Assembly: GCA_022820025.1 (NCBI GenBank)
Contig: JAJEGF010000004.1
Location: 1 to 64,000, forward strand
Direction of reading: 5' to 3'
Length of the DNA stretch: 64,000 nucleotides
Source of the DNA: Chloroflexota bacterium
GTDB taxonomy: Bacteria; Chloroflexota; UBA11872
Shown here: in pieces, positions 56,117 to 63,219 of the stretch
Position numbering within the stretch: position 1 is the stretch's first letter
How the letters are laid out: each line of letters begins with the position of its first letter
The notes under the pieces: generated by a model
What the model saw: the letters and a program-made list of their open reading frames with translations, nothing else
Database searches by the model: none
What the model was told of the DNA's origin: nothing
Translations under genes and position numbers: made by a program

Positions 56117-56824
56117 CTACACCCGGGTCGCCGTATGCAGGGCCACGCTGCCAAGCCCCAGGCGATGCACGCGCACGTCGGCGAACCCGGCCTGGGCGAT
56201 CACGGCCGCCAATGCCTCCGCGCTCACGAATTCGTCGACCGATTGCGGCAGCCATGAATAGGCGCTGGCGTGCCGGCTCACCAGCCGCCCCAGCAGCGGC
56301 ACCCAGCGATTGAAGTAGAGGCGAAACAGCGCGCGCGGCAGCGGCTGCCGCATCGGCGTCATTTCCAGGATCACCAGACGCCCGCCGGGACGCAGCACCC
56401 GCGCCATGGCCGCGAAGATCTCCGGCAACCCGTCCACGTTGCGCAGCAGGAATCCGCTGATCACGGCATCCACGGATGCATCCGCCAGCGGCGGGCGGAA
56501 CGCATCGCCCAGGACGAATCTCGCGGTTTGGCCGGCCTTGGCCTCGCCGGCGCGCCGCCTGGCAATCCGGAGCATTCCCCCCGCGAAGTCCAGGCCGACG
56601 ATCTCGGATCCGGCGCCGCCGTGGCGAGCCAGCGCCAACGCCAGGTCGCCGGTTCCGGTTCCCACGTCCAGCACCACGCGCGGCTGAACCGCCAGGACCT
56701 CCCGGACCGCGCGCCGCCGCCAGCCGAGATGCATGCCGAAGCTCATCAGGAAGTTGAGCAGGTCGTAGCGCGGCGCAATGGCGTCGAACATCGGCCGCAC
56801 CCAGGGGGCCTTGCGCGCTGGCAC
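56117..56824 (-). CDS. ubiE: UbiE/MenG-type quinone C-methyltransferase
   Basis: SAM-dependent methyltransferase, 235 residues. MFDAIAPRYDLLNFLMSFG at the N-terminus, SAM motif VVLDVGTGTGDLALALA and VISGFLLRNVDGLPEIFAAMARVLRPGG match UbiE/MenG. GTG start. It lies 17 bases after the polyprenyl synthase, which makes the isoprenoid tail, so demethylmenaquinone is the likely substrate. Confidence 0.92.
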   Translation of the reverse strand: MPARKAPWVRPMFDAIAPRYDLLNFLMSFGMHLGWRRRAVREVLAVQPRVVLDVGTGTGDLALALARHGGAGSEIVGLDFAGGMLRIARRRAGEAKAGQTARFVLGDAFRPPLADASVDAVISGFLLRNVDGLPEIFAAMARVLRPGGRLVILEMTPMRQPLPRALFRLYFNRWVPLLGRLVSRHASAYSWLPQSVDEFVSAEALAAVIAQAGFADVRVHRLGLGSVALHTATRV

Positions 56825-56841
56825 GGCGTCAGCCGCGAGAC

Positions 56842-57852
56842 CTACGTGTGGCGATCGGTCGCGTAGGTGACGAGATCGGCCAGGGCGTCGAAGGCCGGGT
56901 CTGGCGGCAGCCGGGTCAGCGCGGCCCGCGCCCGGTCCGCATACCCCTCGGCCACCGCGCGCGCCGCGTCCACGGCGCCCGACGCTCGCAGCGTCTCGAT
57001 CGCGTCGGCGGACTCGGCCTCGGACAGCCCCTCGCCCTCGGCCAGCCGCCGCATCACGGGCGTTGGCTGGTCGGCCGCATCCAGGTATTCGACCACCGGC
57101 AGGGTGAGCAACCCGGCCCGCAGGTCGCCGCCCACCGGCTTGCCCGTCTCCTGGGATACGCCCGCAATGTCCAGCACGTCGTCCGTGACCTGGAAGGCCA
57201 TGCCCAGCGACCAGCCAACGTCGTGCAGAGCCTCGGCCTCGTCGTCCGGCGCGTCGGCCAGCACCGCCGTCGCGTCGCAGGCCAGGGCAATCAGCGCGGC
57301 CGTCTTGCCGCCGATCTTCTCCAGGTACTGCCGGCGCGTGGCCTCGGCGTCGCCGTTGAAACTCGGGAAGACGAATTCGCTACGCGACATCTCGTGGATG
57401 GTGTCGGCGAATTGCCGCACGATCTTGGGGCGGTTGAGCCGAGCGACCAGGTCCGCCGCGCTGGCAAAGAGATAGTCGCCGGCCAGGACCGCGACCTTGG
57501 TGGACCAGGCCGCGTGGACCGACGGCTGGCCGCGCCGCGAATCCGCCTCGTCCACGATGTCGTCGTGTACCAGCGTGGCGCTGTGGAGCACCTCGGTGCC
57601 CGCCGCCAGCAGGACGACTTCCTCGCGATCCACGCCGTAGGCCTGGCCGATCAGGAGGGCAATGGCCGGACGCAAGCGCTTGCCCTGGCTCCCCAGCACC
57701 GACGCCAGCACGCCTTGCAGCATGGGGAGTTGGCTATCCGCGACGCAGCGGTCCAACTCGGCCTCGACGTGTACCTGGCCCATCTGCACCGGGGCCAGGA
57801 TTTCCGCGAGATCGCGCGGCGGACGGCGGTCCGTTACGGCAGAGGAGCGCAC
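56842..57852 (-). CDS. Polyprenyl diphosphate synthase (trans-isoprenyl)
   Basis: Chain-elongating prenyltransferase, 336 residues. First aspartate-rich motif HDDIVDEADSRRG and second FQVTDDVLDIAG, plus GSQGKRLRPAIALL and GGKTAALIALAC. The GTG at 57852 is chosen: GGGAG lies eight bases upstream, and the start overlaps the tatD stop by 19 bases. Likely makes the side chain of menaquinone. Chain length is not predictable here. Confidence 0.92.
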   Translation of the reverse strand: MRSSAVTDRRPPRDLAEILAPVQMGQVHVEAELDRCVADSQLPMLQGVLASVLGSQGKRLRPAIALLIGQAYGVDREEVVLLAAGTEVLHSATLVHDDIVDEADSRRGQPSVHAAWSTKVAVLAGDYLFASAADLVARLNRPKIVRQFADTIHEMSRSEFVFPSFNGDAEATRRQYLEKIGGKTAALIALACDATAVLADAPDDEAEALHDVGWSLGMAFQVTDDVLDIAGVSQETGKPVGGDLRAGLLTLPVVEYLDAADQPTPVMRRLAEGEGLSEAESADAIETLRASGAVDAARAVAEGYADRARAALTRLPPDPAFDALADLVTYATDRHT

Positions 57853-58604
57853 CGAAACAGCTCCCGAGCGTTGTGCGTCGTGGTGGCGCAAAGCGAGGAT
57901 ACCGACACGTTTCGCACAGCCGCGACCACGGCGGCGGTATGCGGCAGGTAGGCCGGCTCGTTGCGGCGCCCGCGCTTCGGCGTTGGCGCCAGGTAGGGCG
58001 CGTCGGTCTCGATCAGCAGCCGGTCGGCTGGAACCTCGGCCGCCGCCGCCCGCACGTCGTCGGCTTTCTTGAACGTCACGATGCCCGAGAACGAAATGTG
58101 GAGTCCAAGGTCCACGAATCGCTGCACGGACTCGGGCGGTCCCGTGAAGCTGTGCATGACCCCGCCCGCGGAGCCCAACTCCTCGCCCAGGACGCGCTCG
58201 ACGTCGTCCAGGCTCTCGCGCTGATGGATCACGATCGGCAGGTCCAGATCCGCCGCCAGCCGGCAGTGGGCTCGAAACGCGCGCTCTTGCAGCGCCGGCG
58301 GCTGGTGATCGCGGTAGAAGTCGAGGCCGGTTTCGCCGATGGCCTTGACGTCGTTGACCTTGGCCAGTTCATGTAGAGCCGCAACCGTGGTCGAGTCGAA
58401 CCCGCCACAGTCGTGCGGATGTACGCCCACCGTGGCGTACCAGCCGGGAAAGTCCTGGCCAATCGCGATAGCCCGCTTGCTTGTGGCCAGATCGGTCGCC
58501 ACCACCAGCGTCTCGGACACACCGGCGCTTCGGGCGCGTTCGTGGATGGCATCCAGGTCGTCGGCAAACCCCGAATCGGCCAGGTGGGCGTGACTGTCGA
58601 ACAG
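57834..58604 (-). CDS. tatD: TatD-family metal-dependent hydrolase
   Basis: Amidohydrolase-fold DNase. The frame reads RLFDSHAHLADSGFADDLDA upstream of the first canonical start (GTG 58520), so the HxH metal motif would be lost if translation began there. A CTG at 58604 directly before FDSHAH, or ATA at 58613 overlapping the metG stop, are the candidates; no ATG, GTG or TTG is in frame. Further ligands: GVHPHD, KAIGETGLDFYRD, PIVIHQRES, MHSFTG and LLIETDAPYLAP, all intact. About 257 residues from CTG, normal for the family. Confidence 0.85.
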   Translation of the reverse strand: MFDSHAHLADSGFADDLDAIHERARSAGVSETLVVATDLATSKRAIAIGQDFPGWYATVGVHPHDCGGFDSTTVAALHELAKVNDVKAIGETGLDFYRDHQPPALQERAFRAHCRLAADLDLPIVIHQRESLDDVERVLGEELGSAGGVMHSFTGPPESVQRFVDLGLHISFSGIVTFKKADDVRAAAAEVPADRLLIETDAPYLAPTPKRGRRNEPAYLPHTAAVVAAVRNVSVSSLCATTTHNARELFRCAPLP

Positions 58605-58609
58605 CCGGA

Positions 58610-60133
58610 CTATCCGTCCAGGCGCGGGAACAGCGGCGGACCGCCGGGCACGTGCTGGCCGGCTTCGATCACGCCGGCGTCGTCGCCCCAGGCCGCCGGC
58701 CGCCCCACGATTCCCAGCTGCACTTCGATGGCGTCAGCCGTCTGCGGAATTGCCGGACGCACCATGGTGGCAATGCGCGGCAGCGCGTCCATCAGCATCG
58801 CCAGCACCGTCCGCAGGCGCGGCTGTTGCGCCTCGTCCCGCGCCAGTCGCCAGGGTTCCGTCCGTTCGATGTACTGGTTCACCGCCGTGATGTAGCGCCA
58901 GACGGCGGCCAGCGCCAGGTGAAAGCGCCAGTTCTCGTATTGGTGGGCCGCCACGTCCCAGGCCGTCTGCTCGGCCGCGCGCAATTCGGACTCCTGGCTG
59001 GTGAAGTCGGTCAACTCAGGTGCAATGCCGTCCAGGTAGCGGTGCAGCATGGAGGTGCTGCGCAGCACCAGGTTGCCCAGGTCGTTGCCAAGATCGTGCT
59101 GATAGCGCCGCGCCATGCCTTCCCAGGTGAAGTCGCCGTCGCGCTCGTAGGCCACCTCCCGCAGCAGGAAATAGCGCAGCGCATCCGAACCGAACCGTTC
59201 CACCACCTCCGCCGGCCGCACCACGTGCCCGCCGCTCTGGCTCAACTCCTCGCCGGCGAAGTTGACCCAGCCGTGCACGCAGACCTGCCGTGGCACTTCC
59301 AGTCCGGCAGCCATGAGCATGGCCGGCCAGTAGATCGCGTGGAAGCGCACGATGTCCTTCCCGACGACATGTACGTCCGCGGGCCAGCGCTTCGCGAACA
59401 GGTCGTCGCCGCCGCGCTGCCCGAATCCGATGCCCGTGATGTAGTTGATCAGCGCGTCGAACCAGACGTAGATGACATGGTCCGGGTCGTTCGGCAGCGG
59501 CAAGCCCCAGCCGCCGGTGGCACGCGAGATGCTGAAGTCCTTCAGTCCCTGCCGTAGGAACCCCAGCATTTCGTTGCGCCGCGATTCGGGCCAGACGAAG
59601 TCCGGACGCTGTTCGTAGAGTTCCAGCAGCGGCTCCTGATAACGGGAGAGGGCGAAGAAGTAGTTGTCCTCCTCCACCCACTCGGGCGGGACGCGATGCG
59701 TCGGACAACACCCGTCCACGAGTTCCTCATCGCCGTAAAAGGCCTCGCAGCGGACGCAGTACCAGCCCTCGTACCGACCCTTGTAGATATCGCCGTTGTC
59801 GAATACCCGCTGGTAAAAGGCCTGCACCGTCTGCAGGTGCCGCGGTTCGGTCGTGCGCACGAAGTCGTCGAACTCCACGCCGACCAGGTCCCAGGCCGCC
59901 TGAAAGCGAACCGCCGCCTGATCCACGTACGTCTGGGTGTCAATCCCTTCGTCGCGGGCCGAACGGCTGACCCGTTGACTGTTCTCGTCCAGACCGCCCA
60001 GGAAAAACACGTCCTGGCCACGCAGCCGGCGATACCGCGCCATGGCGTCGGCCGTGATCATCTCGAACGAGTGCCCGACGTGCGGCTCGCCGCTGGGATA
60101 GGGAATGGACGTGGTCAGGTAGTAACGGGACAC
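58610..60133 (-). CDS. metG: Methionyl-tRNA synthetase with degenerate KMSKS loop
   Basis: Class I aminoacyl-tRNA synthetase, 507 residues. The HIGH-type site is PYPSGEPHVGHSFE, the zinc knuckle GWYCVRCEAFYGD..VDGCCPTH, and the methionine pocket region IYVWFDALINYITGIGFG is normal. The catalytic KMSKS loop, however, reads FAGEELSQSGGHVV: both lysines are replaced (E and Q). The fold and anticodon-binding helical domain are otherwise intact. GTG start. Whether this is the cell's only MetRS cannot be told here. Confidence 0.9.
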   Translation of the reverse strand: MSRYYLTTSIPYPSGEPHVGHSFEMITADAMARYRRLRGQDVFFLGGLDENSQRVSRSARDEGIDTQTYVDQAAVRFQAAWDLVGVEFDDFVRTTEPRHLQTVQAFYQRVFDNGDIYKGRYEGWYCVRCEAFYGDEELVDGCCPTHRVPPEWVEEDNYFFALSRYQEPLLELYEQRPDFVWPESRRNEMLGFLRQGLKDFSISRATGGWGLPLPNDPDHVIYVWFDALINYITGIGFGQRGGDDLFAKRWPADVHVVGKDIVRFHAIYWPAMLMAAGLEVPRQVCVHGWVNFAGEELSQSGGHVVRPAEVVERFGSDALRYFLLREVAYERDGDFTWEGMARRYQHDLGNDLGNLVLRSTSMLHRYLDGIAPELTDFTSQESELRAAEQTAWDVAAHQYENWRFHLALAAVWRYITAVNQYIERTEPWRLARDEAQQPRLRTVLAMLMDALPRIATMVRPAIPQTADAIEVQLGIVGRPAAWGDDAGVIEAGQHVPGGPPLFPRLDG

Positions 60134-60169
60134 GGCTGATAGGTGACCGGGGTGGAGCGGTGCGCGATT

Positions 60170-61015
60170 CTACGCGCTGTCGGCGTGCGGCTCGCGCAAC
60201 TCCCGTGCGATTCGGTAGACATCTTCCCTGGGCAGATCCAGGGCGCGCGCCACGGCCCCGGCCGCCTTACCCGGACGCATTCCAGCTTCCAGACGGCTAC
60301 GCAACTGCGCTTCTACCGTTGCCCGGTCAATCGTGGGCGCCTCGGCGACGCCGCCGACGTCAACCACCACCGTGAGCTCCCCACGCGCGCCCACGACGGA
60401 CACGTAGTTGGCAATCTCCGCCAGCGTTGATTCGCGAATCTCCTCATGGAGCTTGGTCAGTTCTCGGCACATGGCCGCGGGGACGTCTCCCAGCCACGCC
60501 TCCAATTCGGACAGCCGGTCGGTCACACCGTGGGGGGACAGGTAGATCACCAGCGTCCGCGCCGTGTCGGCGGCGCGTCGTACCAGGCGTTCCCGCCGAA
60601 CCCGTCGTTCCGGAAGAAATGCCAGGAAGGCCACCGGCTGGCGCGCGAACGACACGACGGATAGCGCCGTGGTCAGCGCCGAGGGTCCCGGAATAGGACT
60701 GATTGGCAGCCCTTCAGCCCGCACGCGCGCCAGCAGGTCCGGCCCCGGATCGGAAACGCCCGGCGTGCCCGCGTCCACGATCAGCGCCACGTCGCCGGCG
60801 CGCAAGCGCTCGATGATGGCGTCCTCTCGACTTTCGGGGCTGTCCTCGCGGTAGGTAATCACCTTGGGAGTGCTGCCCACATGCCCCAGCAACTTGCGGG
60901 CGCGCTGGACATCCTCGGCCACCACAACGTCCACCGAACGCAGCACCCGAGCCGCCCGAAACGTCAGGTCTTCCAGGTTGCCTATCGGCGTCGCGACCAC
61001 AAACAGCGTTCCCAT
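60170..61015 (-). CDS. rsmI: 16S rRNA (cytidine(1402)-2'-O)-methyltransferase RsmI
   Basis: Tetrapyrrole-methylase-fold enzyme, 281 residues, modifying C1402 of 16S rRNA. LFVVATPIGNLEDLTFRA, VVVAEDVQRARKLL, ALIVDAGTPGVSDPG, PIPGPSALTTALSV and ELTKLHEEIRESTLAEI are all diagnostic. TAGACT lies six bases before the ATG, suggesting a promoter with little or no leader. It heads the rsmI-metG-tatD-prenyl synthase-ubiE-femX-murE run. Confidence 0.93.
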   Translation of the reverse strand: MGTLFVVATPIGNLEDLTFRAARVLRSVDVVVAEDVQRARKLLGHVGSTPKVITYREDSPESREDAIIERLRAGDVALIVDAGTPGVSDPGPDLLARVRAEGLPISPIPGPSALTTALSVVSFARQPVAFLAFLPERRVRRERLVRRAADTARTLVIYLSPHGVTDRLSELEAWLGDVPAAMCRELTKLHEEIRESTLAEIANYVSVVGARGELTVVVDVGGVAEAPTIDRATVEAQLRSRLEAGMRPGKAAGAVARALDLPREDVYRIARELREPHADSA

Positions 61016-61112: not shown

Positions 61113-63047
61113 CTACTTGGGCATCGCCCTGATGGCGTCGTACGCCGGACGCGGCGAGAGATCGGGCCGCAGGATGCCGAAGGCCCACTTCTCGTCGGTG
61201 TTTGGCACAACCTGCTGGAAGTTCAGGTTCCACATGATCATGTGGGTGACGTACGGGCTTTCAGCCCGGACCTTGGCGAAGGACCGCGCAAGGAACGCCG
61301 CCTGATCGGCTTCCGAGTTGCAGCGCGCGTACTCGTACCCCGCGGCTGGCGCGGCTGGCCCGCCCGGTCCGTGAATCGTGGCCCAGCCGAACTCGGTGAA
61401 CCAGACGGTCTTCTCGGGGTGCCCGCGAGCCGCCATCAGGTTGTACAGCTCCTTGTAGCGGTCAAAGAAGAAGCTGGGGTGATTGGTCCAACCGCCCCCG
61501 CACTTGGCGTTGCTGTTGTGCGCCGCCTCGTTAAGCCAGTCATCCGGAGCATTGGGGCCGCCGTTCGGGTGCACACCCAGCGCTTCGAAATAGTTGAAGA
61601 CCTCACCGTTGTTGTGGTCGAAGACGCGCTGCAGGTAGATAGCGTCGTCAATGCCCACGTTGTTGTTGAACACACCCGTCGGGGTCGGCGCGCCAAGGAT
61701 GACGATCGCGTTGGGATCCGACTCCTTCACGCCCCGGTAACCGTTCTTGACCAGGTCAACGAACTGTCCGTACGAGGCGTTCGAAAACGTGCCCCACTCC
61801 AGCGAGAGGTTCTCCTCGTTCCAGATCTCATACGCCTGAACGCGGCCCTTGTAGCGGGCGGCGATCTCACGCATGAAATCGCGCAGCTTCGTCGGGTCGG
61901 CGGGTCGCCCGTGTCCGGTGCCCCGCTTGCTCGCTTCGGCCTTATAGAAGTCCGGTGACTTCACGACGCTCAGCAGGATATTCAGCCCCTTGGCGTTCAT
62001 CGTGTTCACCAGGCGATCCGTCGGACCCCAGTTGAAGATGCCGGGGCGGTTCTCCACTTCCTCCCATGGAATCTGCTGCTTGACCCAGTTCAGACCGGCG
62101 GCCTTGACGATATCCGCCAGCCGGCCGTCTTCATTAAGGCGATATTCGCCCTGAATGCCAAAGCCGGTCAGCCCGCGGGGAAGGACGCGCGGTGCGGGTA
62201 TCGAGCCAACCGTCGTCGGACGGGTTCTCGGCGTGGTGTCCGGCGCTTCAGTCGGCGCCGGGGTCGCCTGCGGAGCTGTCCTCGGCGGGGCCGTCGCCGC
62301 GCGACCGCCAGCCTCGGCCGCGGTAATCGGCGGCTTGGCCGCGTTGGGAATGATCACGTTGCTGAGCTTCTTCACCTTGTCCGGCACGTTCTGCCGACCC
62401 ACCGCCCCGATTGACGTCCCGGTCGCGGGCACGTTCCAGACCTCGAACACGATGCGCTGCGCGCGCAGCAACTGCAGTCCCTGCGGGTTGCCATTGACTT
62501 CGCGTTCCTCGTAGCGGATCGGCAGCCCGTAGAGGTTCAGCCAGTTGGGATCGGCCAGGAACTCGGCCCTGATCTTGGGATTCGCGTCCAGCAGCGCCAG
62601 GTGGTTGCGGACGATCACCGCGAAGTCAGTCACGCCCCGGTCCGCGGCCAGAACCTGGTGCGGCGGCACGTTGGGCAGGTCAACGTTGGGATAGCGGTTG
62701 GCCAGCGCGTCCAGCGTGTTGTACCAGTTCATGCGCCGGTTCGTTGAATCCCATTGCAGGATCACCTTCTGGAAGGCCTGCAACGTGAACGGACCCTCCA
62801 CCCAGCGGCCACTGATCGGGTAACCCAGGGCCTGGAGGTCCTTGTCTCGAATGAAGTCCCACATCGGGACCCCGCCGGCGTTGGTCACGGCGTAGCCATC
62901 GTCGTCCCGATTGGGCGTGTCACCACCCGTCGCGGTAAACAAGCATCCGTCGTTCAGGGGAATGCCATCGCATTCAAAGGCATGAACCGGAGCGGCCATG
63001 GCCAACACGACCAGCAACACGACCACACCAACGACTAGCTTGCGCAT
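61113..63047 (-). CDS. Secreted clan GH-A glycoside hydrolase-like protein
   Basis: About 644 residues with a Sec signal peptide (KLVVGVVVLLVVLAMAAPVHA). Residues about 20-210 form a cysteine-containing domain with DKDLQALGYPISGRWVEGPF, then a Pro/Thr/Ala-rich linker (about 250-290). A (beta/alpha)8 barrel follows, whose acid/base Glu lies in YEIWNEENLSLEW and nucleophile Glu in VWFTEFGWATIHG, as in clan GH-A (GH5/GH39-like). ATG at 63047, with GGGAG six bases upstream, is preferred over the longer ORF. Polysaccharide target unknown. Confidence 0.8.
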   Translation of the reverse strand: MRKLVVGVVVLLVVLAMAAPVHAFECDGIPLNDGCLFTATGGDTPNRDDDGYAVTNAGGVPMWDFIRDKDLQALGYPISGRWVEGPFTLQAFQKVILQWDSTNRRMNWYNTLDALANRYPNVDLPNVPPHQVLAADRGVTDFAVIVRNHLALLDANPKIRAEFLADPNWLNLYGLPIRYEEREVNGNPQGLQLLRAQRIVFEVWNVPATGTSIGAVGRQNVPDKVKKLSNVIIPNAAKPPITAAEAGGRAATAPPRTAPQATPAPTEAPDTTPRTRPTTVGSIPAPRVLPRGLTGFGIQGEYRLNEDGRLADIVKAAGLNWVKQQIPWEEVENRPGIFNWGPTDRLVNTMNAKGLNILLSVVKSPDFYKAEASKRGTGHGRPADPTKLRDFMREIAARYKGRVQAYEIWNEENLSLEWGTFSNASYGQFVDLVKNGYRGVKESDPNAIVILGAPTPTGVFNNNVGIDDAIYLQRVFDHNNGEVFNYFEALGVHPNGGPNAPDDWLNEAAHNSNAKCGGGWTNHPSFFFDRYKELYNLMAARGHPEKTVWFTEFGWATIHGPGGPAAPAAGYEYARCNSEADQAAFLARSFAKVRAESPYVTHMIMWNLNFQQVVPNTDEKWAFGILRPDLSPRPAYDAIRAMPK

Positions 63048-63219
63048 CTTGACTCCCTGGGCGACGACCGGCGGCAAGGCTTTGAGGTTGCGCCGCCACG
63101 TGTATCAACGGTCGGGCATCCAGTCTGTTACGTAACCTTCACCGGCGCAACACCCGCGCGCCGCGCATGCCCGGTCGGCACGCACCGGCAGATGCGAATC
63201 CTCGACCCGACGACGGTAT

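Follow-up and report, generated by a model that had tools for sequence, protein, structure and literature searches.

Can a methionyl-tRNA synthetase (MetRS) whose KMSKS motif is left without either lysine still serve as the only such enzyme of a cell, and what would then supply the charge that these lysines provide? The question is raised by metG in a 64,000-nucleotide stretch of the genome of an uncultured Chloroflexota bacterium (assembly GCA_022820025.1, contig JAJEGF010000004.1, positions 1 to 64,000), referred to below as the window. Textbooks give KMSKS as a hallmark of class I synthetases and credit its second lysine with stabilising the transition state. From sequence comparison, we conclude that the window encodes a real, conserved and presumably active variant of the MetRS1 type, in which charge stabilisation has probably been relocated, and not a new kind of enzyme. 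An initial annotation of the window had described a MetRS without the KMSKS lysines, and this is confirmed, with Glu296 and Gln299 standing in their place; the position it gave (59230..59275) overlaps the loop but lies about 20 bases off. Lysine-less enzymes are found in 13/13 genomes of the window's genus and 5/6 of a sister genus, and alignment of these 18 (family f1) with 78 other MetRS1 enzymes defines the following features.

58610 to 60133, minus strand: metG, MetRS of the MetRS1 type, 507 amino acids, GTG start (open reading frame and family profiles)
59219 to 59254, minus strand: loop at the KMSKS position, GEELSQSGGHVV (residues 294-305), read directly and aligned
59246 to 59248, minus strand: Glu296 (GAG), replacing the first KMSKS lysine
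59237 to 59239, minus strand: Gln299 (CAG), replacing the second, catalytic lysine; Gln in 18/18 f1 enzymes, Lys in 74/78 others
59225 to 59227, minus strand: His303, a new basic loop residue (Asn in most MetRSs); 18/18 in f1, basic in about 1% elsewhere
59216 to 59218, minus strand: Arg306, a new basic residue past the loop (Asp in most MetRSs); 17/18 in f1, basic in about 6% elsewhere

Relative to the 78 other enzymes, basic residues have disappeared from positions 296 and 299 of the family and have appeared at 303 and 306 of the same segment. Throughout the genus (13/13 genomes) the loop reads [EQ]EL[ST]QSGGHVV, and in five of the six sister-genus genomes it reads APMSQTSGHIV; across the two genera, the first lysine is replaced by Glu or Pro and the second by Gln. 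Within the genus, loop codons differ silently and the amino acids almost never do, the exceptions being GQEL (L013) and ELTQS (L014). Because 12 further genomes of the genus, from several assembly projects and including one single-contig chromosome, carry the same loop with such silent differences, an error of reading or assembly is ruled out; the lysine loss common to 18 genomes likewise rules out one whose correction would restore KMSKS. The gene is under purifying selection, with nonsynonymous divergence (dN) of 0.006-0.057 and synonymous divergence (dS) of 0.23-0.87 against congeners; a dN/dS of ~0.03 to 0.08 also rules out a pseudogene or decay. When the tree is built from all but the loop columns, the 18 lysine-less enzymes group as a single clade (Shimodaira-Hasegawa-like approximate likelihood ratio test, 100%) beside the next family in the same order, which retains the second lysine (xMSK[ST], KLSKS) and sometimes has Ala for the first. 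Our reading is that both KMSKS lysines were lost once, in the ancestor of the family. No Gln-type loop turned up beyond the family when 400 Chloroflexota genomes were scanned by codon pattern, but this is weak evidence: the scan recovered just ~10 of the 18 cases already known, and the window's own TTG codon escaped it.

With respect to copy number, it had been proposed that another MetRS might exist. Searching with PF09334, we found no second MetRS in the window's own genome (G000, 93.6% complete) or in G001, a relative assembled as a single 3.0 Mb contig, the other hits being class I relatives, LeuRS, ValRS and CysRS among them. In one genome of the sister genus (G018), a 77-codon open reading frame (ORF) at the usual place of metG fuses residues 1-39 or so to the final ~17, the scar of an in-frame internal deletion (L165:713-943, G018:C24), and a foreign MetRS2 with the loop KASSS is carried elsewhere (L148, G018:C19). 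The natural reading is that one working MetRS has been replaced by another, an essential-gene replacement in nature. Since G000 and G001 each have one MetRS and G018 has a replacement where metG is deleted, we reject the idea of another enzyme, and from the single copy together with the gene replacement we infer that the window's protein charges tRNA-Met with methionine, as the sole working and presumably active MetRS of its host. A second, divergent MetRS with KVSKS is present in the assembly of one congener, G005 (L147, G005:C72), where contamination (4%) is a possible source.

The residue that best accompanies the loss of the second lysine lies well outside the loop.

59972 to 59974, minus strand: Arg54, on the second helix, equivalent of Staphylococcus aureus Lys56; co-varies with residue 299 (alignment and covariation)

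The equivalence of residue 54 to S. aureus Lys56 and to Mycobacterium tuberculosis Lys54 comes from ungapped alignments. In ternary complexes of the S. aureus enzyme, Lys56 bonds the ATP phosphates, a role that the authors liken to that of Arg399 of human MetRS2, an ATP-facing arginine of the MetRS2 type that is absent from MetRS1 (PMC9071491); the M. tuberculosis K54A mutant is inactive, which is explained in that paper by conformation (PMC6038951). Among the 18 f1 enzymes and the 78 others, Arg54 is confined to f1 except for one outgroup, L096 (loop RLSRS). When enzymes related to L096 or to L091 (loop KMSSS) were added, bringing the set to 135 distinct MetRS1, Arg54 was found in 24/24 enzymes whose second lysine is replaced by Gln or Arg versus 0/108 with Lys, and column 54 was the only perfectly associated column (the runner-up scores 0.77 on that scale). 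Parsimony places four Arg54 changes on the tree (three gains and one reversal), each on a branch where residue 299 also changes, and such branches make up 2.3% of tree length (coincidence P of ~3e-7, or ~3e-3 when corrected for all positions and residues, on an approximate tree). In f2, f4 and f5, the nearest relatives carry Asn or His at 54 and still have their second lysine, which places the gain of the basic residue at 54 on the branch of lysine loss. Coupling of residue 54 to residue 299 is likely, though not proven.

Several observations weigh against this coupling and against a role for Arg54. The covariation rests on four changes in the tree, one of them a reversal (L216), sister-pair tests offered too few pairs to reach significance, and position 54 had been singled out before its test. 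In the L096 clade, the change was from Lys to Arg at both sites, and a substitution bias is possible, GC bias as its cause being rejected by the overlapping GC ranges of the two forms. Furthermore, in the KMSSS clade (L091, L092 and L094) position 53 or 54 is basic, yet Arg54 does not occur, and in the Thermus MetRS position 54 is not basic. As for copy number, the G018 scar is possibly an assembly artefact at that one site.

The view that catalysis is rewired, first put forward in the initial annotation, gains support from sequence comparison, because residue 54 co-varies with the second lysine and new basic residues have appeared in the loop; the co-varying arginine suggests that the lost positive charge was shifted rather than that it vanished. 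We give an even chance to the reading that the charge of the lost lysines is supplied, in a sole working MetRS, mainly by Arg54, possibly with His303 and Arg306. Cationic stabilisation of the leaving pyrophosphate would then come mainly from Arg54, on the helix that in other MetRS1 enzymes bears the lysine contacting the ATP phosphates, and His303 and Arg306, having arisen in the loop of the same clade, may be its helpers. More tentatively, the catalytic cation for pyrophosphate departure in MetRS1 may now be a fixed arginine of the second helix instead of a residue of the mobile KMSKS loop, with the loop no longer acting as a charged lid and residues 54 and 299 forming an exchangeable pair across the MetRS1 family.

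It is less likely that the charge moved within the loop, with His303 and Arg306 (seven and ten residues past Glu296) directly replacing the lysines and Arg54 being incidental. The two residues, in 18/18 and 17/18 enzymes, are specific to the clade without both lysines, but L014, which has Thr306, also lacks both, the KMSSS and RLSRS clades have gained no such residues, and the reach of the post-KMSKS segment to the phosphates is uncertain. Somewhat more doubtful is a bound potassium ion with Gln299 as its ligand, by analogy with human TyrRS (KMSSS), where potassium is reported to replace the second lysine; such an ion would leave the Arg54 coupling and the loss of the first lysine unexplained. 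We consider it improbable that the enzyme is simply slower and tolerated, its lysines having drifted away in a lysine-poor, GC-rich lineage. The protein does have four lysines to 46 arginines, and neighbouring genes are also lysine-poor, but Lys259 is retained in 18/18 enzymes, the loop is strictly conserved, and the replacements are Gln, Glu or Pro rather than Arg, even in L014 at 52% GC. There is little to recommend the idea that the altered loop protects from an inhibitor mimicking methionyl-adenylate, an explanation also considered for the agrocin-immune LeuRS AgnB2, a self-immunity synthetase whose changed loop, KQSKS, sets a precedent (PMC5059758): AgnB2 retains its lysines, and beside metG neither an inhibitor gene nor a second, sensitive copy was seen, although protection would be a selective reason and not a catalytic mechanism, and so compatible with the other readings. 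Finally, that another MetRS carries the load and the window's protein is a paralogue with a different role is scarcely credible, for while G005 has its KVSKS enzyme and two MetRSs occur in some relatives within the class, G000, G001 (which contradicts it directly) and most family members have only the lysine-less MetRS, with metG under strong purifying selection.

Loss of the second lysine alone is already known, and it is the lack of a basic residue at either position that is unusual. The initial annotation had implied that the second lysine is near-indispensable, which is too strong, as Ser, Thr, Gly, Ala or Arg is common there in other MetRSs. The Pyrococcus abyssi-type MetRS (1rqg, KFSTS) and Chloroflexota MetRS2 enzymes (KASSS, KVSTS, KFSAS, KFSSS and KISGS), in which the position varies freely, likewise have no second lysine, as does human cytosolic TyrRS, an active class I synthetase (PMC2813244, PMC7613620), but all of these keep the first, unlike the window's enzyme. 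In our tree sample, one MetRS1 clade has KMSSS, and loss of the first lysine alone also occurs. The RLSRS enzymes of the L096 clade, also Chloroflexota, resemble the window's MetRS in having Arg54 and no motif lysine, and differ from it in that their arginines preserve the loop charge. Among the MetRSs sampled, a basic residue is missing from both positions in the window's family alone. No paper describing a MetRS without both KMSKS lysines was found in a search whose reach excluded most subscription journals. The LeuRS (KMSKS) and ValRS (KVSKT/S) of the lineage are normal, which rules out a lineage-wide loss of KMSKS. Its CysRS has KMAHS; in this class, KMAHS or KMGHS, with His for the second lysine, was seen in 29/30 CysRS loci (L167, G000:C61:31933-33360, and L168-L195), the lone exception coming from another class.

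Apart from the loop, the enzyme is an ordinary MetRS1. It scores above the curated cut-offs of NCBIfam PRK12267 (630 bits versus 598) and TIGR00398 (474 bits versus 336). The AlphaFold 2 prediction (predicted local distance difference test score of 93.4) has its best PDB matches all among MetRSs and fits solved MetRS1 structures with a template modelling score of up to 0.95; these class I matches point to a Rossmann-fold catalytic domain. Of the class I signatures, HIGH is present as HVGH, while the KMSKS position reads EELSQS, with no Lys at 296 or 299 in 18/18 f1 enzymes. The fold, domain order, methionine pocket, knuckle position and anticodon residues are shared with the MetRS1 of S. aureus, M. 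tuberculosis and Brucella, from which the window's enzyme differs in having Arg54, His303 and Arg306 and no Lys at either KMSKS position. The HIGH motif, zinc knuckle and anticodon domain had been called intact, and they are.

60071 to 60082, minus strand: HIGH motif, HVGH (residues 18-21), read and aligned
59696 to 59758, minus strand: zinc-knuckle ligands C126, C129, C143 and H146, in a pattern matching Thermus thermophilus MetRS
59357 to 59359, minus strand: Lys259, in the GKDI motif; the protein has just four lysines, and this one is invariant in f1 (alignment)

Methionine-site residues Y12, D49, R204, W224 and H265 and anticodon residues N354, R358 and W428 are kept, most being invariant over 42 aligned MetRSs and the remainder conserved in at least 90%; we take them to correspond to E. 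coli Y15, D52, R233, W253, H301, N391, R395 and W461. The neighbours of metG, all on the same strand, are ordinary genes (rsmI, tatD, a polyprenyl synthetase and a ubiE-type methyltransferase). Genes across 56117..61015 are very poor in lysine at 67% GC (4 Lys to 46 Arg in metG and 2 to 28 in the ubiE-like gene). Adjoining rsmI, a 654-amino-acid ORF (61113..63077) without a Pfam match resembles a secreted glycoside hydrolase, and similar ORFs occur near metG in G013 and near the metG remnant in G018.

The variant is of interest to synthetase specialists, and the two-residue prediction for positions 54 and 299 is within reach of a standard kinetic assay. An essential single-copy enzyme without both lysines, together with a co-varying residue in its ATP site, would represent a natural experiment on relocating a catalytic charge.
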